Shown here: in pieces, positions 3,188 through 25,455 of the stretch
Layout: each line of letters starts with the position of its first letter
Position numbering within the stretch: position 1 is the first letter of the stretch
Origin: Bacteroidota bacterium
GTDB lineage: Bacteria > Bacteroidota > Bacteroidia > Flavobacteriales > Schleiferiaceae
Direction of reading: 5' to 3'
DNA: 50,269 nt
NCBI GenBank assembly: GCA_016868755.1
Contig: VGFU01000010.1
Location: 1-50,269 of the forward strand
Translations under genes and position numbers: made by a program
The notes under the pieces: generated by a model
Database searches by the model: none
Told to the model about the DNA's origin: nothing
The model's input: only the letters and a program-made list of their open reading frames with translations

Positions 3188-3874
3188 ATGGAAAAGTCTC
3201 CCGTTTTATCGCTTCGCAACGCCAGCATCGTGCAAGGCAGCCACCGCGTCTTGAGCGACGTCAACCTCGAAGTCGCCGCGGGAGAATTTATTTATGTGAT
3301 CGGCGCCACCGGTTCGGGCAAGTCGTCGCTGCTTAAGACGCTATACGCAGACCTTCCGCTCGAATCGGGCGACGGCAGCATTGTGGGCTACGACCTGCGC
3401 AACCTTCAGGAACGCGACATCCCGTACCTCCGCCGGCAGCTGGGCATTGTGTTTCAAGACTTTCAGCTGCTTATGGACCGCAGCGTGCGCGACAACCTGG
3501 ACTTTGTGCTGCGGGCCACGGGCCAAATGAACCGCAGCGAAAACGACGACCGCATCGACAACGTGCTTCGCCGCGTAGGTATGCCCACCAAAGGCCACAA
3601 GATGCCGCACCAGCTTTCAGGTGGCGAACAGCAGCGCGTGTCCATTGCGCGAGCTCTGCTTAACGACCCTCCGTTGATTTTGGCCGACGAGCCGACGGGC
3701 AACCTCGACCCGCACATGTCTGAGGAGCTGATGCACCTGCTCGAAGAAATCCGCGCCAGCGGCCGCAGCATTTTGATGGCCACCCACGACTATGCGCTCC
3801 TGCTTAAGTTTCCGCACGCTACCTACCGCTGCGCCAACGGAACGCTTGCGTCGACGGTCCAGCGCACCCTTTAA
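3188..3874 (+). CDS. ftsE: FtsE-like ABC ATPase
   Basis: A 228-residue ABC ATPase without membrane segments. Visible motifs are Walker [10 protein letters not shown] (39-47), Q-loop Q90, signature LSGGEQQR (143-150), Walker [14 protein letters not shown] (163-175) and H-loop H200. Size and the DEPTGNLDP form fit the FtsE/LolD group; FtsE with FtsX couples ATP hydrolysis to peptidoglycan hydrolase activation at the division site. No ftsX or lolC neighbour is in the window, so the assignment to ftsE rather than another family member rests on resemblance. The start is the ATG at 3188; the longer frame from 3062 overlaps the divergent TPR gene. The TAA stop overlaps the stop of the convergent glycosyltransferase through a shared TTAA. 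Confidence 0.8.
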
Positions 3875-6048
3875 GCTTTTGGTGGCACGGACCGAAACCG
3901 CGCAGCCACTTCGCGTGCGCGCTCCGCATGCTCGGCCGTCCACGGTCTTTGCTGTGCGCTTCGAATTGCGGCATAAGCCTCGTCCCACGTGCGGTAGGTG
4001 ATAACCCGTTCGCCCAGATCCAGTCCCTGAACCGCAAATTCGTGGGCGACAATGTGGCGCCCCTGGAGCAGGGCCTGAATTAGCTTAAACTTTATTCCCA
4101 GCGCATGTTCCGCATGGACCACTACGACCTGGGCCTTGGCGTACAGGGCGTCGAGCGCTTCGTCGCTCGGTCGGTCGAGGTAATGGGGCGTGCCTTCAGG
4201 GGCGTTGTGGCCGGCAAAGCACAGGCCTTCGAGCGGAGGCTGCGCCGCAAGTAAGCCGTTGAGGGCGGCGGCGTTCTCTTCGACGCTGAACTTGCCGACG
4301 GCGAGAACGAGCGGCTCGGTCGCGGGATGCAGAGGAATCCGCTCTGCAAACGGGTGGTGCGGCGGAACCCATCGGGCCGCCGAACGGGGGCGCAGGGCAT
4401 TCCACGCCTCGGCGTCGGCGGGGGTGATCGCCTCAACGGATCCTTGCCATGTGGCAGCGAGGTGGCGCTCCCAGCGCGAAAGGGCCCAGGCCTCCGCGCG
4501 GTAGTACGCCCGCTTGAGTCCGCGAGCATGGCGAGCCAAACTGGCGTAGTAGGCCGATTCAGGGTTGTGCAGGCGAAGTACGCCGTCGCTGGCCAGTCCG
4601 CTGCAGTGCAGGCCGTGGTAGGTGACGGCTCCGCGCTGAACCGCGGCCTGGTGCTGAGCAATGCGGGTTTGGCGGCTCTGCACGATCCAAGGGAGCAGGT
4701 TGAACGGAAGGCGGCGTCGGCTGATCACGTTGACCTGAACCTCGGCAAACGCACTGGGCTGCGCGAGCGGACGTCGGGTAAATGCGTGCAGCACGACCTG
4801 CTGGCCCACCGCGGACCGCACGTGGCCGAGGACCTCGAGCGTACCTCCGTAGCGGGGCGGTTCCAGGCGGTCCATGCTCCAAATGTGGTGGGTGGCTCGG
4901 CCCTCGAGGCGGTCGATCAGCCGGTGCCACACCTGAGCCTCGTGACCCCAGTGGTAGCGGTGGGCGGCCTGGCGGGCGGCCTGGCTTGCAGCAGCATAGG
5001 TTGCGGACTGCATCAGGTCGCGCGCGGCGGCGGCGATGGCCGACGGGGTGAGTTCCGTCAGCACGGTTCCTGCTCCCGTTTCGCGAACCACCCGAGCCAC
5101 CTCCACCAGGTCGCTGGCCACCACCGGAATTCCGGCCTGAACGTAGTCAAACAGCTTGTTGGGCAAGCTCCAGCGGTAGTTCTGCGACTTGGGCTTGTCG
5201 AGGCTGAAGCCGAGGTCGGCGGCGGCGGTGAAGCGCAGTAGCTCTTCGCGCGGAACCCGGCCGACGAAGCGAACGTTGGTGATTCCACGCACGGTAACGC
5301 GCTGCTGAAGTTGGGGGATGGCGTCGCCGCTGCCGACCACCACGAGCTCCACCTCAGGGCAAAGGGCCGCAGCATCGACGAGTTCTTCGGCGCCCCGGTC
5401 GACGTTGATTCCGGCGCCTTGGAGAATCCAAAGGGTCTTGTCTGCAGGTAGACCCAACTCGGCGCGGACGGCAAGCATTCTCACTGCAGCATCCGGCCAC
5501 TCGCCGTCAGGTCCCCACGGAAGTTCTGCAGCGAGGGGCACGTTGCGAACGACGTCCCAGGTCGAGCCGTATTCGCGTGCGTACTGATCTGCGATGCTCG
5601 GGTTGACGGTCACCCGAAAATCAGTGCGCGGAATTCCGTAGCGCTCCACTCCGCGCCAAAGGCGCTGAACCAAGGGGCGTGACTCGAGCTCGGGTGCCCC
5701 CAAAAAATACTCGTGGCTGTCGTAAGCCAGTGGCTTGGCACGGCGCATGGCCCACCACGCGTTGGGCCCCAACGTGTCGAGGTCGTTGGCGAGGTACACG
5801 TCGGGGCGCAGGCGCTTAAGTGCGAACCAAAGCCTAACCTGGAATTCCAGGTAAAACAAGGGTCCGCGATTAAACCGGCACACCATTCGGTGCGTTTCGT
5901 AGGGGCGCTGGAGCGGAGCGGGATTGGGGTAGGTCCGCCCCACCACCACGACGCGGTACCCGCGTTCAGACCACAAGGTCGCGGTGCGGTGCACGCGCTG
6001 GTCGCTGTGCAGGTCGTTGATGACGCTCAAAACTACCGTGGGCTGCAT
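3871..6048 (-). CDS. Two-module glycosyltransferase (probable fusion)
   Basis: A 725-residue protein with two glycosyltransferase-like halves. Residues 1 to about 385 form a GT4-like enzyme: start TVVLSVINDLHSDQRVHR, acceptor-domain motif YDSHEYFLGAPE, nucleotide-sugar region LPNKLFDYVQAGIPVVAS. Residues from about 386 begin anew with HHIWSMDRLEPPRYGG, which resembles the N-terminus of a second Bacteroidota glycosyltransferase family (typically HIVSFDVPYPxxYGG), and continue through LAVGKFSVEENAAAL and GIKFKLIQALLQGRHIVAHE to the end. In relatives these two types are, from memory, separate and often adjacent genes; here they share one uninterrupted frame with almost no linker. The ATG at 6048 is preceded by a promoter element four bases upstream. 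Sugar specificity cannot be inferred; a role in surface glycan synthesis is likely. Confidence 0.8.
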   Translation of the reverse strand: MQPTVVLSVINDLHSDQRVHRTATLWSERGYRVVVVGRTYPNPAPLQRPYETHRMVCRFNRGPLFYLEFQVRLWFALKRLRPDVYLANDLDTLGPNAWWAMRRAKPLAYDSHEYFLGAPELESRPLVQRLWRGVERYGIPRTDFRVTVNPSIADQYAREYGSTWDVVRNVPLAAELPWGPDGEWPDAAVRMLAVRAELGLPADKTLWILQGAGINVDRGAEELVDAAALCPEVELVVVGSGDAIPQLQQRVTVRGITNVRFVGRVPREELLRFTAAADLGFSLDKPKSQNYRWSLPNKLFDYVQAGIPVVASDLVEVARVVRETGAGTVLTELTPSAIAAAARDLMQSATYAAASQAARQAAHRYHWGHEAQVWHRLIDRLEGRATHHIWSMDRLEPPRYGGTLEVLGHVRSAVGQQVVLHAFTRRPLAQPSAFAEVQVNVISRRRLPFNLLPWIVQSRQTRIAQHQAAVQRGAVTYHGLHCSGLASDGVLRLHNPESAYYASLARHARGLKRAYYRAEAWALSRWERHLAATWQGSVEAITPADAEAWNALRPRSAARWVPPHHPFAERIPLHPATEPLVLAVGKFSVEENAAALNGLLAAQPPLEGLCFAGHNAPEGTPHYLDRPSDEALDALYAKAQVVVVHAEHALGIKFKLIQALLQGRHIVAHEFAVQGLDLGERVITYRTWDEAYAAIRSAQQRPWTAEHAERAREVAARFRSVPPKA

Positions 6049-6092: not shown

Positions 6093-7322
6093 ATGACGAC
6101 GGATCCCCGCCACCTTCGCATTTCGGACTACGACTACCCCCTACCCGACGACCGCATTGCCCAGGAGCCCTGCGATCCGCGCGACGCCGCCAAGCTATTG
6201 GTTTGGAAACGCGGAACGATTCGCGACCTCGGAGTGCGCGACGCTCCCGAGGTTGTGGCTTCGTGGGGACCGTTTCGTCTGGTGGTAAACGAGGCGCGGG
6301 TGGTTCCCGCACGAATTTTTTTGCCGCGCCCCAGCGGAGCAGGGCACATAGAGCTCTTCTACTTGGACGCCGAAGGTCTGTCGGTCGAACAAGCGATGGC
6401 CAAAGCGTCTGTTCTCCAAGCCTGGTGCAAGGTGCGCCCAAGCAAAAAGTGGAAGGACGGCGTAGTGCTCCAGCACCCGTGCGGACTTACCGCGTCGCGG
6501 CTAGCCCAGCGGGACGGCGAATCTCTGGTAGAATTCCGCTGGTCGTCGGGGCAGACGTGGGCGCAAATCTTGAACGAAGTGGGGCGGATTCCCCTCCCGC
6601 CCTACATGCACCGCGCCGACACCGAAGCCGACCGCGACCGCTACCAATCGGTGTTTGCCCGCCACGAGGGCTCCGTCGCTGCGCCCACCGCCAGCCTGCA
6701 CTGGACCCCCGAGCTGATGCGCCGCTGGCGCGAGGTCTGCGCCGACACCCAATCGGTCACGCTGCACGTGGGGGCCGGCACCTTTCAGCCCGTCAGCGCC
6801 GAGGCCGTGGGCGACCACCACATGCACGCCGAAGAGGTGGTGGTTCGGCGCGACGTACTCGAGGCGCTCGCTGACGGACTCCCGGTGCTCGCTATGGGCA
6901 CCACCGCGGCCCGGACCCTCGAATCGCTCTACTGGTGGGCCCTGGAATGGCAGCGCAGCGGAACCATGCCCAGCTACGTGGATCAGTGGGCTCCCTACGA
7001 GGGGCTTCTGGCTTCTGGTTTCTCGGCGCAGGGCGGGGAGCTGCTTGATCCCGAGGTGTGCGCGCTGTTTACGTGGGCCGCAAAGGAATTGACCAAGCTC
7101 GGGCACGGCGTGGTGTCGTTCCGCACGGCCTTGATCGTTGCTCCAGGTTATTCGTTTCGCGTAGTTAAGGCGTTGATCACGAATTTTCATCAGCCCCAAT
7201 CCACGCTCCTCCTGCTTGTTTCAGCCGGCCTCGGAACCGCGTGGCGCGGGGTTTACGAGCACGCTCTGGCGAACAACTACCGTTTTTTAAGCTACGGCGA
7301 CGCGAATTTGTACCGCTTTTAA
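6093..7322 (+). CDS. queA: S-adenosylmethionine:tRNA ribosyltransferase-isomerase
   Basis: A 409-residue QueA. This cytoplasmic enzyme transfers and isomerises the ribosyl group of SAM onto 7-aminomethyl-7-deazaguanine at tRNA position 34, giving epoxyqueuosine. The family start ISDYDYPLPDDRIAQEP is clear, followed by RDAAKLLVW, the VNEARVVPARIF segment, the PLPPYMHRADTEADRDRYQS region with VFARHEGSVAAPTASLHWT, then TLHVGAGTFQPV, and a C-terminal LITNFHQPQSTLLLLVSA. It is longer than E. coli QueA (about 356 residues), as is usual for the Bacteroidota form. The ATG at 6093 follows a -7 element by five bases. The endonuclease/phosphatase-family gene follows 35 bases downstream on the same strand. 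Confidence 0.95.
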   Translation: MTTDPRHLRISDYDYPLPDDRIAQEPCDPRDAAKLLVWKRGTIRDLGVRDAPEVVASWGPFRLVVNEARVVPARIFLPRPSGAGHIELFYLDAEGLSVEQAMAKASVLQAWCKVRPSKKWKDGVVLQHPCGLTASRLAQRDGESLVEFRWSSGQTWAQILNEVGRIPLPPYMHRADTEADRDRYQSVFARHEGSVAAPTASLHWTPELMRRWREVCADTQSVTLHVGAGTFQPVSAEAVGDHHMHAEEVVVRRDVLEALADGLPVLAMGTTAARTLESLYWWALEWQRSGTMPSYVDQWAPYEGLLASGFSAQGGELLDPEVCALFTWAAKELTKLGHGVVSFRTALIVAPGYSFRVVKALITNFHQPQSTLLLLVSAGLGTAWRGVYEHALANNYRFLSYGDANLYRF

Positions 7323-8342: not shown

Positions 8343-8373
8343 CAGCTTATTGGGCTTAACCCAACGAAAGTTT

Positions 8374-9342
8374 ATGAAACACCTAGCTACCGCCAGCCTC
8401 GCAGTACTTGCCCTGGCTTCTTGCCAGCCCCAAGATCCCGATCCGCTTCCCGAAGTGTACATCACTGATTCGCTCACGGTGAGTCCGAAGCAAAAAGTGC
8501 TGGTGATCGAAACCACCGGAACCTGGTGCCAGTATTGCCCCAACGGAGCGCAGTCGATGCTCATGGCCATCAACACCTTTAACGACACTGTCAACCACGA
8601 GGCCCTGATTATTCCGTTTGCGTCGCACACGGGCGATCCCTTTGAGTCTTCGGTTCAGACGGCTTTGAATACGGCGTTCCCGACCACAGGCGTGCCCAAT
8701 TTCTACGTGCAAAACGCCGATGCCGGACAAGACATCATGGGTCCTATTGCCGGAGCTTTGGCGAATGAACCCAAGGTTGGCGTTAACCACGCGTGGTTTA
8801 TGAATGCTACCAACGATACGATTTATGTGTACCCCAAGGTGCAGTTTTTTGAGGACAGCAAGGATGCGCAGTACTACGTGCAGTCGTATGTGCTGGTCAC
8901 CAACATCGACGCTAAAGAGTACAACGCTGGAGGCCCGGTGATTAACCTAAACCAAGTTAGTTCCGTGCCCATCGTAACAACGGGTTCAGGCGCAACGCCG
9001 TCAAAGTGGACCGGTCAGGCAGATCCGCTCACCAAAAAAGTTGCCGGAGACATCTACCAGCACGACCACATCCCAATGACTTCAGGACTTACACCCAACG
9101 TGTTTGGGGTGGAACTGGACTCGATCAACCCGCTGGGCAACGACTTCTTTGAGGGCGACATTTTTGGCTCGAAGTTCACACCGATCGTGATCAAGATTCC
9201 GTTGAACAAAGACATCCAGATGCAGGCGGTCCGCCAAATTATTCCCAACGTAAAGTTGGAGGTGGCTACGCTCCTTTGGGCGCCGCGTCAAGATGGCGAG
9301 CCCGGCGTGCTATTTGTCAACGGCCACATCGACCACAAGTAG
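8374..9342 (+). CDS. Omp28-like outer-membrane lipoprotein with thioredoxin-like CxxC
   Basis: A 322-residue lipoprotein. The signal peptide ends in a lipobox LALAS-C with the lipidated cysteine at residue 17. The next region, VLVIETTGTWCQYCPNGAQ, carries a CxxC pair (C52, C55) in a thioredoxin-like setting and is followed by a cis-Pro-like TTGVPNFYV segment. This arrangement is that of the Omp28 family first described in Porphyromonas gingivalis. Role: probably surface or periplasmic binding or redox handling; the true function of the family is not settled. The ATG at 8374 starts the signal peptide; the frame from 8350 has no signal sequence. No type IX secretion C-terminal domain is obvious. 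A strong terminator follows. Confidence 0.75.
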   Translation: MKHLATASLAVLALASCQPQDPDPLPEVYITDSLTVSPKQKVLVIETTGTWCQYCPNGAQSMLMAINTFNDTVNHEALIIPFASHTGDPFESSVQTALNTAFPTTGVPNFYVQNADAGQDIMGPIAGALANEPKVGVNHAWFMNATNDTIYVYPKVQFFEDSKDAQYYVQSYVLVTNIDAKEYNAGGPVINLNQVSSVPIVTTGSGATPSKWTGQADPLTKKVAGDIYQHDHIPMTSGLTPNVFGVELDSINPLGNDFFEGDIFGSKFTPIVIKIPLNKDIQMQAVRQIIPNVKLEVATLLWAPRQDGEPGVLFVNGHIDHK

Positions 9343-21704: not shown

Positions 21705-24194
21705 ATGAACGAACTCTTTCGCAACGCTAGCCGCTCGTGGCTCTACCCGGTGCTCGCCGTGGTCGCCCTCAATTTTGCCTACTTCGCGCCCGTCGTGTTT
21801 CAGGGCAAGCAGATTCCGCAAGACGACATTAAGTTAGGGCTTGCCAAGGGCAAAGAAATCGTGGACTACCGCGCCGCCACCGGCGAAGAACCGCTGTGGA
21901 CCAACGCGATGTTTAGCGGCATGCCAACGTTCCAAATGTCGACGCTATACCCCAACAACGTGCTGAGCTACGTCGACGCAGCCTTGCGCAAGCCGCTGGT
22001 GGAGCACAGCGGTGTTTACCTAATTGGGCTGTTAATGCTCGGGTTTTTTGCGCTGCTGCGCGCCGAAAAAGTGCAGCCCTGGCTCAGCGTGGCCGGCGCT
22101 TTGGCCTTTGGGTTTAGCGGATTTTTCATCATTTCGCTCGCCGCCGGACACAACGCAAAAATCCACACCGCCGCCTACATGGCCCCGGTGATTCTGGGCA
22201 TTTTGATGGTGTACCGCGGCCAACTTGCGGCCGGATTTGCCGTGACCACCCTGGCCACCGGACTCAATATTCACGCCAACCACTTCCAAATAACCTACTA
22301 CTCGGCGATTCCCGCGCTGGCGATTGCGGTCGCCTTTTTGGTGGAGCTCGCCCGCTCGGGCCAGGTAAACGCTTGGGTGCTGCGCTCGGCTCTGCTGCTC
22401 GGCGCGGCCGTCGTCGGCATCGGGCCCAACTTTGGCAACCTATGGTCGACCTACGCCTACACCCAGGCGACGATGCGCGGTGGACACTCCGACCTGAGCC
22501 CGCTTCCCGACAGCACGGGGACGGCCCCGGCGGCCAAGGCCGAGGGCCTTGACTTTGATTACGCCATGTCGTGGTCCTACGGCGTGACGGAGTCGCTCAA
22601 CCTCTTCATTCCCAACTTAATGGGCGGCGGAGCCAAGCAGGACTACGAGGGCACCGAAACCTACGAAAACCTTGCCCGCGTCTTCCAGCAGCAGGGCTTG
22701 GGCGGCGAACGACTCAAAGAAACGGTGAACCAGTATGCTGGGTCGTTCCTGTACTGGGGCGACCAGAGTATGGTGAACGGTGCCTACTACCTCGGCGCCG
22801 TTGTGTTCTTTTTGTTTGTACTCGGGGCGATCACCGTGCGGGGCGCGACGCGCAATTGGGTGCTCGGCGCCCTGGCGGTAAGCTTGATCCTGGCCTGGGG
22901 CCGCAACGCCGAGTTCATCAACCGCTTTTTGTTTGACCACCTGCCGCTGTACAACAAGTTCCGCGTGCCCTCGATGGCCCTGGTCGTGAGCTTTTTGGCG
23001 GTGCCCTACCTCGCGTTTGTCGGACTTCAGCAGTGGCTTACCGGCGAAGGCGACAACGCCCAAAAGCAGCGCTCACTATACTTGGCCGCCGGTATTTCGG
23101 GCGGATTGGCCGCTGTGGTTGCCCTTCTGGGGCCGGCGCTGTTCTCCCTGGAGGGCTTGAACGACGCCAACCTCGCGCAGCAGGGTTTTGACCTCGCGCT
23201 CCTCGAAACCGACCGCGCCAGCCTCATGCGCAGTTCGGCCTGGCGCAGCTTCATCTTGGTGGCCTTAGCGGCCGGCGTTCTTTGGTTGCAGCTAAACGGC
23301 CGCCTCAAGCCCGCCGTGTTTGCCGGCGCCCTCATTGCCCTCGTGGCGGTGGACCAGTGGGGATTTGACCGCGACCAGCTCGGAAGCGACGAGTTTCAAA
23401 CCGAGCGCGAGTTCAAGTCCGCGTTCACGCCGACTCCGGCCGACGAGTTCATTCTCAAGGACACCGACCTGCACTACCGCGTGTACAACACCACCTCTGG
23501 GTTGACCAGTGACAGCTACACGTCCTACTTCCACAAGAGCGTGGGCGGCTACCACGGTGCCAAACTCGCTCGCTACCAGGATTTGATTGAGCGCCAGCTT
23601 TCGCAGGGCAACATCGCGGCCTACAGCATGCTCAACACCAAGTGGGTCATCACGCAGGATCAACAAACCGGAATTCTCCAGGCGCAGCCCAACATGAGTG
23701 CCTGCGGCAATGCGTGGTTCCCGGCCGAGATTCGCCAAGTGGCCAACGCCGACGAGGCCATGGCTGCGCTGAGCAATTTCGACCCGATGCAGACCGCAAT
23801 TGTGGAGCAAGGCGTGCACGCCGAGCGCCTGCTGAACTCCCAAGCGCCCGATTCAACGGCGCGCATCACCCTGACGAAGTACGACCCCAAGGTTATGACC
23901 TATGAGGTCGAGGGACTGACGTCCAACTCGGCGGCGGTGTTTTCGGAGATTTTCTATGAAGTTCCGGGGCAGTGCTGGGTGGCCACGGCCGACGGCGTGG
24001 AGGTTCCAGTGGCCCGAGTGAACTACGTGCTGCGCGCGGCGGTCATTCCGGCGGGCACTAAAGAGGTAGTGTTCCGTTTTGAGCCCGAAACCTACACGAC
24101 GGGCAGCTCTATCGACGGAGCCTTTTCGCTGCTGCTGCTCGCCTCGCTCGGATTCGCCCTCTGGATCGAGTTCAAGCGCCGCCGCAGTGCCTAA
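21705..24194 (+). CDS. YfhO-like polytopic membrane protein
   Basis: An 829-residue membrane protein with a GT-C-like layout: an N-terminal helix SWLYPVLAVVALNFAYFAP, a first loop with PQDDIKLG and PLWTNAMFSGMPTFQMS, then many helices to about residue 550, a soluble periplasmic part (about 560-795) and a last helix LLLLASLGFALWIEF before the basic end KRRRSA. This matches Bacteroidota YfhO-family proteins. Some family members take part in glycosylating wall or lipid-linked polymers, but the substrate here is unknown. The start is the ATG at 21705 just after a -7 element. It overlaps the following glycosyltransferase by eight bases; the pair is common in flavobacteria and suggests a shared glycan pathway. 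Confidence 0.82.
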   Translation: MNELFRNASRSWLYPVLAVVALNFAYFAPVVFQGKQIPQDDIKLGLAKGKEIVDYRAATGEEPLWTNAMFSGMPTFQMSTLYPNNVLSYVDAALRKPLVEHSGVYLIGLLMLGFFALLRAEKVQPWLSVAGALAFGFSGFFIISLAAGHNAKIHTAAYMAPVILGILMVYRGQLAAGFAVTTLATGLNIHANHFQITYYSAIPALAIAVAFLVELARSGQVNAWVLRSALLLGAAVVGIGPNFGNLWSTYAYTQATMRGGHSDLSPLPDSTGTAPAAKAEGLDFDYAMSWSYGVTESLNLFIPNLMGGGAKQDYEGTETYENLARVFQQQGLGGERLKETVNQYAGSFLYWGDQSMVNGAYYLGAVVFFLFVLGAITVRGATRNWVLGALAVSLILAWGRNAEFINRFLFDHLPLYNKFRVPSMALVVSFLAVPYLAFVGLQQWLTGEGDNAQKQRSLYLAAGISGGLAAVVALLGPALFSLEGLNDANLAQQGFDLALLETDRASLMRSSAWRSFILVALAAGVLWLQLNGRLKPAVFAGALIALVAVDQWGFDRDQLGSDEFQTEREFKSAFTPTPADEFILKDTDLHYRVYNTTSGLTSDSYTSYFHKSVGGYHGAKLARYQDLIERQLSQGNIAAYSMLNTKWVITQDQQTGILQAQPNMSACGNAWFPAEIRQVANADEAMAALSNFDPMQTAIVEQGVHAERLLNSQAPDSTARITLTKYDPKVMTYEVEGLTSNSAAVFSEIFYEVPGQCWVATADGVEVPVARVNYVLRAAVIPAGTKEVVFRFEPETYTTGSSIDGAFSLLLLASLGFALWIEFKRRRSA

Positions 24195-25455
24195 ACGCAT
24201 ACTCGTCGCGACCTACTACTGGCCGCCGGCCGGTGGACCGGGCGTGCAGCGCTGGCTTAAAACAGCCCAAGCCCTCAAGCACCTTGGCCACGACGTTGAG
24301 GTACTCACCGTCGACCCAGCTTATGCAACCTACCCCCTGCGCGACGAGAGCCTCTTGGCCGAAACCCTGGGGATTAGCGTGCACGCAACCCCGGCGCGCG
24401 ACTGGTTCGGCGCCTACCAAAAGCTCACCCGCCGCAAGGAGGTTCCGTTCAGCGGTTTTGCCAACCAAGCCGGGGCACCAGGGCCCATTCAGCGCCTGTC
24501 GCGCTGGGTGCGCGGCAACTTCTTTTTGCCGGATCCGCGGCGCGGATGGAACCGATACGCCGTGGCCGAGGCCCTTCGGCAGCATGCCCGAGCGCCTTTT
24601 GACTTGGTGGTGACGAGCGGTCCGCCCCACTCCACCCACTTGATCGGATTCGAGCTGCAGCAGCACGGGATGCGCTGGTGGGCCGACTTTCGCGACCCTT
24701 GGACCGACATATACTACTACCGCATGTTTTACCCGTCGGCCTGGGCCCGACGCCGCGATGCCGCCCTCGAGCGCCGGGTGCTGCAGCATGCCGAGCGCGT
24801 GCTATGCGTTTCGGACGACCTCAAGCGTTTGCTGGCGGGTAAATTGGACGGCGCCCACGAAAAATTCCTTGTGGTGCCCAACGGATACGACCCCGCTGAT
24901 TTCGACGATCAGGCTCCGGTTCCGCGCAACGAAGTTCGCACCGTGGTCTACACGGGCACGTTGACGCTCGACTACCCGCTTGATGCGCTTTATTCCGCCC
25001 TGCGGACCTACACCACCGAGCACGGAGCACTCAAACTAGTGTTTGCCGGCCGCCCCGCTCAAGAGGCCAAAGACGCCCTGGAGGCCCTAGCCCGCGAACT
25101 GCCCCTGCGGGTGGAATTCAAAGGCTACCTGCCCCACGCTGAAAGCGTGGCCTTGCTTCAGGGGGCCGACGCACTGCTGCTGCTGATTCCTGAATTGCCC
25201 AACAACCGCGGAATTCTTACCGGCAAACTCTTTGAGTACCTCGGTAGCGGCCGCCCCATTTGGGGATTTGGCCCCGTCGACGGCGACGCCAACGCCATTT
25301 TGCGCGAAACCCATGCCGGCGGACTTTTTGACGATGCTCACGAAGCCGCCGCCGCCCTCGCCCAGTGGCCCGAGCAAGGCGCCAGCCCCGAAGCCCGCGG
25401 CCGCTACACCAGGCTCGGCATCGCCAACGAACTGGCGGCTTACTTCGACAAGTAG
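24187..25455 (+). CDS. Glycosyltransferase (GT4-like)
   Basis: A 422-residue GT-B glycosyltransferase. It starts at a GTG (24187) inside the end of the YfhO-like gene: RILVATYYWPPAGGPGVQRW is the usual N-terminus of this Bacteroidota family. Later segments are DLVVTSGPPHSTHLIGFEL, WWADFRDPWTDIYYYRMFYP, AERVLCVSDDLKRLL and VVYTGTLTLDYPLDALYSAL, then the sugar-nucleotide site NRGILTGKLFEYLGSGRPIW. The frame starting at 24079 only adds overlap with the upstream gene. The last 16 bases overlap the end of the convergent carB. Confidence 0.88.
   Translation: MPKRILVATYYWPPAGGPGVQRWLKTAQALKHLGHDVEVLTVDPAYATYPLRDESLLAETLGISVHATPARDWFGAYQKLTRRKEVPFSGFANQAGAPGPIQRLSRWVRGNFFLPDPRRGWNRYAVAEALRQHARAPFDLVVTSGPPHSTHLIGFELQQHGMRWWADFRDPWTDIYYYRMFYPSAWARRRDAALERRVLQHAERVLCVSDDLKRLLAGKLDGAHEKFLVVPNGYDPADFDDQAPVPRNEVRTVVYTGTLTLDYPLDALYSALRTYTTEHGALKLVFAGRPAQEAKDALEALARELPLRVEFKGYLPHAESVALLQGADALLLLIPELPNNRGILTGKLFEYLGSGRPIWGFGPVDGDANAILRETHAGGLFDDAHEAAAALAQWPEQGASPEARGRYTRLGIANELAAYFDK

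Follow-up and report, generated by a model that had tools for sequence, protein, structure and literature searches.

Two predicted GT-B glycosyltransferases in one reading frame: an inherited fusion in two genera of Bacteroidia and an apparent alternative partner for its first half

GtfA and GtfB are a pairing of two GT-B-like proteins. The pair acts in the glycosylation of serine-rich repeat proteins and is described as a catalytic glycosyltransferase (GT) and a partner said to chaperone the acceptor (PMC6973325). WbdA of E. coli O9/O9a and Klebsiella O3/O5 carries two or three glycosyltransferase modules per chain that form successive linkages (PMC11231755). Multi-module glycosyltransferases are already known, and the fusion described here is a further variant of that type. 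By the description of WbdA, both proteins combine several glycosyltransferase modules in one chain, the two modules of the fusion being recognized by fold prediction only; however, the WbdA modules are known mannosyltransferases making a repeating polymer, whereas the second half of the fusion has a non-canonical donor site. GtfA and GtfB differ in being separate proteins of Gram-positive bacteria with a DUF1975 domain, whereas the fusion is one chain, and DUF1975 is not among its Pfam matches up to E 1 in a general Pfam search. The GT4 enzymes of known structure MshA, BshA, WaaG and PimA resemble the first half in fold, and the second half less closely, but unlike the fusion they are single-module enzymes.

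The analyzed window, a stretch of 50,269 nucleotides, is an entire contig of a 1.62 Mb draft genome (70 contigs, 96.9% complete). The fused gene occupies positions 3871..6048 on the minus strand, where an uninterrupted frame runs from an ATG at 6048 to a stop at 3871 and encodes 725 amino acids. The conserved alignment begins at or near the Met at 6048, although the frame continues open upstream. The original prediction of two glycosyltransferases in this single frame was borne out at the level of fold, since the protein consists of two predicted GT-B units. The N half (residues 1-383; 4900..6048, minus strand) is a GT4-type GT-B glycosyltransferase, and the C half (residues 386-725; 3874..4893, minus strand) is a second predicted GT-B unit that belongs to a Bacteroidota family. 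Its N-terminus, HHIWSMDRLEPPRYGG, is indeed the start of a separate family of this phylum, with separate orthologs of about 370-400 residues. The junction, placed near residue 386 with almost no linker, comprises residues 384-385 (4894..4899, minus strand) according to the alignment of 20 fusions, and in the structural model the final helix of the N half spans residues 367-382 and the first strand of the C half residues 386-391.

The N half was assigned by two Pfam families, Glyco_transf_4 (PF13439; E 2e-14, 54.4 bits against a cut-off of 28.5) and Glyco_trans_1_4 (PF13692; E 1e-13, 52.2 bits against 27). The C half alone gave no Pfam family above the cut-off (best E 0.093), scoring 13.4 bits against the cut-off of 27 for PF13692. 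Its best NCBIfam match was TIGR03087 (stp1; E 9.7e-5), of which it is not a member, the match reaching 21.7 bits over 63 residues only against a cut-off of 316.65. The sole relative of C with a solved structure that emerged from sequence comparison, Tako8 (E about 0.01), was judged a chance match. AlphaFold2 models were obtained for the whole chain from 12 aligned fusions (pLDDT 87.7, pTM 0.86) and for the C half from 20 C sequences (pLDDT 91.8). The N-half model aligned with MshA at Z 35.7 in VIA-align (357 residues, 2.8 Å), and the C-half model with sucrose-phosphate synthase (6kih) at Z 24.4 (318 residues, 3.5 Å) and with MshA at Z 23.7. Both halves match GT-B structures and are therefore predicted GT-B folds, the architecture expected of a GT4-like enzyme, in the predicted models. 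This shared fold might suggest a tandem duplication of a single glycosyltransferase, but the two are only weakly alike (hhalign probability 34%, E 4e-4), and distinct sets of separate orthologs exist for N and for C. We ruled out this origin as highly improbable. Estimates of dN/dS were low for N (0.09-0.14 in seven of eight close pairs, the remaining pair being saturated) and for C (0.10-0.19 in eight close pairs), which points to purifying selection on both halves.

The fusion is real and inherited, and it joins two neighboring enzymes. Among 22 genomes of the same genus, the junction is in frame in all 20 that are readable there, while two genomes (G050, G059) show no gene. The complete single-frame fusion is present in 16 of the 22, the window counted, and in four more (G043, G046, G047, G048) the junction is in frame but the gene is broken elsewhere, where the contig ends, the frame changes or a run of N intervenes. 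All three genomes of a second genus (g5) also contain the fusion. The expectation that related genomes would share it was thereby confirmed, and it bears directly on the concern that a stop and start had been lost through an error in assembly or sequencing where the two genes meet so closely. Although the very short linker would fit such an error, an identical in-frame junction recurs in 23 of 23 readable genomes from two genera and mostly different assemblies, and no close relative has two separate genes, which occur in distant ones. Short of a systematic error shared by independent assemblies, an artifact is refuted, and we assign it a negligible probability.

The 19 fused rows form one branch both in the N tree (57 rows; SH-aLRT 100) and in the C tree (42 rows; SH-aLRT 99, with a long-branch warning on the tree). 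One locus with a run of N (L013) was left out of profiles and trees, and two (L154, L155) were left out of trees as repeats of fused rows. The simplest reading of these phylogenies is a single origin of the fusion, in a common ancestor of the two genera, whose family is Schleiferiaceae/Cryomorphaceae judging from how relatives are named. In a class sample of 396 genomes, whose match list was ordered such that any fusion should rank near the top, the window was the only joined N-C match without a stop among the matches listed, and at least 16 joined matches contained one or more stops. Likewise, no stop-free join besides the window was found among the matches listed for a phylum sample of 296 genomes; the two samples overlap, and most species lie outside both. 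Four long open frames were considered as further fusions and rejected: in G629, G667 and G681 the C gene is a separate frame, and in G012 N alone was found.

N and C are an old pair of neighboring genes in Bacteroidia and, most simply, the source of the fusion. An N match was identified in 66 of 75 Bacteroidia genomes, of which 41 have a separate C, three have joined matches (stop-free in the window, interrupted by one stop in G388 and by three in G332) and 22 have N alone, the last group including weak N matches of unproved orthology such as that of G384. C without N was found in none of the 75. Separate C orthologs also occur in other families of the order: a search of 296 genomes gave 38 with matches, 26 of them from outside the family. 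N is present in 25 of 26 order genomes with C. The exception, G305 (contig C39, 38228-39295), is the sole genome seen with a C match and without an N match. Outside the class, no match in the C range was found at E 1e-25 in the phylum sample of 296 genomes, with three candidates scored per genome. C is nearly dependent on N, while N often occurs without C.

Among the 41 genomes with both genes separate, C adjoins N downstream on the same strand in 26, the corrected gap ranging from -9 to +64 bases, and the two are not adjacent in 15. Arrangements other than tandem include that of genus g23 (G112, G221 and others), in which about 1.5 kb separate N from C and the two are encoded on opposite strands. 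We further inspected 23 loci outside the family that contain both genes, a non-random set in which many were chosen because C adjoined N. In 11 of the 23, C could start before the N stop codon is complete, the first possible start being TTG in seven of these 11, and such overlap suggests coupled synthesis. In six of the 23 the N stop is immediately followed by the open C frame, and the loss of one stop would be enough for a fusion. An ABC-ATPase neighbor is kept beside C in 21 of the 23. A first possible C start that is often TTG and overlaps the end of N was seen in L133, L143, L144, L164, L165, L166 and others of the loci L131-L170. In L140 and L141 (G640 and G523) a diverged N stands beside C, and a stretch in the middle of the profile is unaligned, which splits the N match into two pieces.

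These gene arrangements bear on two further explanations. The two halves may be working enzymes with different acceptors or pathways, joined without functional coupling as a by-product of small-genome packing. The small genome (1.6 Mb) and the ease with which a directly following C frame could be joined are consistent with this explanation, but the conserved neighborhood, the rarity with which C occurs without N in the class and the exclusion of an unrelated glycosyltransferase by C, described below, argue against it, and we regard it as unlikely. The main rival explanation is that C may be a non-catalytic partner of an active N half, a GT-B fold that has lost its donor chemistry and serves to hold or position the acceptor, a role reported for GtfB in its pairing with GtfA. 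The nearly constant company of N and the overlapping gene starts fit such a partner. On the other hand, N is kept without C in the 22 class genomes mentioned above and in 58 unfused genomes of the family, and therefore N does not need C.

The donor sites are relevant to the same question. The literal EX7E motif is not found in the N half, where W293 and D301 (5146..5148, minus strand) align with the Glu positions, nor in the C half, where these positions hold L650 and Q658 (4075..4077, minus strand). The 'complete GT4 donor site' originally ascribed to the N half is thus too strong a description. The GT4 enzymes listed in PMC3898925 keep EX7E, in contrast to both halves of the fusion. Among 20 aligned sequences of the C family, fused and separate, none has Glu at the second position, which is occupied by Q, H, S, A, N or K. 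Since fused and separate C alike are without the second Glu, the change is older than the fusion. The absence of both Glu residues from the C half leaves room for a non-catalytic partner, for which GtfA/GtfB is a precedent (PMC6973325). However, the C family retains invariant polar residues (R107, N110, E112, K268 and K270 in C numbering), and WsaF is reported to be without the first Glu of EX7E, while its second Glu is the residue that binds the donor deoxyribose, and replacement of that Glu by Ala lowers binding and activity but preserves some activity (PMC3898925). A departure from the literal EX7E is therefore no proof that either half is inactive. We consider a non-catalytic C half to be somewhat unlikely, the more so as another enzyme appears to take the place of C.

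C is lacking from the remaining genera of the family, where the best match to the C profile (9e-14) covers part of the profile. At five loci (L152, L153, L156, L159 and L162) a gene of the Pfam family Glycos_transf_2 lies on the opposite strand between N and the ABC ATPase gene. A profile built from these five GT2 genes, applied with a threshold of E 1e-15, matched 61 of 63 unfused genomes of the family and none of the 25 genomes of the genera g1 and g5. All 58 unfused family genomes with N have GT2. In 42 of them N and GT2 share a contig, and there GT2 is invariably convergent with N at a distance of no more than 592 bases; in the other 16 it lies on a different contig. In the class sample of 75 genomes, GT2 was found in 14 of the 22 with N only, in none of the 44 with N and C, and in one of the nine with neither, and it is convergent with N and at most 1.2 kb from it in eight of the 14. 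The opposition of C and GT2 in this sample has a Fisher p of 4e-9 with kinship ignored. Among 20 genomes of the order, GT2 was found in none of 16 with C and in one of four with N only. Altogether, GT2 is absent from all 82 C-bearing genomes searched (44 of the class, 16 of the order and 23 fused, the window being counted once).

On a tree of 99 N rows, C versus GT2 requires at least eight changes. This tree used seven of the 19 fused rows and omitted three C-bearing genomes (G359, G378, G380) and one with N only (G384) because their N matches are in pieces; G278 was entered as C-bearing without a GT2 search of its genome. A kinship-aware test on well-supported branches yielded five independent pairs, in which GT2 was opposite in 2.7 on average and the same in none (median p 0.25, with few pairs). 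Since C is missing where GT2 is present and GT2 is absent from the C-bearing genomes, the two appear to substitute for each other at a second step. We tentatively propose, as a quite possible reading, that two unrelated enzymes, the GT-B protein C and the GT-A protein GT2, serve as alternatives for one glycan step across Bacteroidia. The two would often occupy the same place next to N, would have replaced each other several times and would be mutually exclusive.

Such an interchange favors successive transfer, in which both halves would work in series on one glycan, and on these comparative grounds we consider this the probable function of the fusion, with moderate confidence. Within the single chain with its two GT-B units, the N half would attach a first sugar to a glycan acceptor that is probably lipid-linked, and the C half would then extend the product of the N half by the next sugar. 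In relatives without C, the unrelated GT2 enzyme would perform the second step. The fusion would hold both enzymes at one acceptor and fix their ratio, one step past the overlapping genes of its relatives. Catalysis by both halves, the N-then-C order, the shared lipid-linked acceptor and the replacement of C by GT2 are what we infer; N often occurs without C, C rarely occurs without N, and another glycosyltransferase is often present where C is missing, a pattern consistent with N as the first enzyme and C or GT2 as the next. Neither C nor GT2 was found in eight of the 22 class genomes with N only, so that the second step there would be dispensable or done otherwise. The physical coupling of two successive sugar transfers, as first proposed, is accordingly plausible in view of the exchange of C and GT2, and it is weakened by the non-canonical donor site of the C half.

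If successive transfer is true, the fusion is a 'Rosetta stone' linking two enzymes present in many Bacteroidia, and the mutual exclusion of C and GT2 is a testable clue to a glycan common in the class, for the making of which no description was found in the literature searched. A single biosynthetic step would be served by enzymes of two unrelated folds, and, if either enzyme can fill it, the glycan of the fused enzyme would differ from that of sister genera in the chemistry of the second linkage. The apparently exclusive partner slot is of more interest than the fusion itself. No report of the fusion or of the N/C/GT2 locus with this slot was found in the literature searched, subscription papers being outside the search.

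The fused gene is flanked by two genes on the plus strand. The convergent neighbor (3188..3874) encodes an ABC-transporter ATPase that we take to be FtsE-like, the Pfam match itself (ABC_tran) identifying an ABC ATPase only. The stop codons of the two genes share a 4-base overlap (3871-3874). The divergent neighbor (6093..7322) is a QueA-like queuosine biosynthesis gene (Pfam Queuosine_synth), and a queuosine gene adjoins N in 12 of the 13 loci L151-L163. Elsewhere in the window, a frame of 330 residues (8350-9342, plus strand) without a Pfam match at E 0.001, judged by eye, begins like a lipoprotein and contains a CxxC motif. Finally, a frame of 458 amino acids (24079-25455, plus strand) shows a weak match to the N half, with 33% identity over residues 258-349 (E 0.003).
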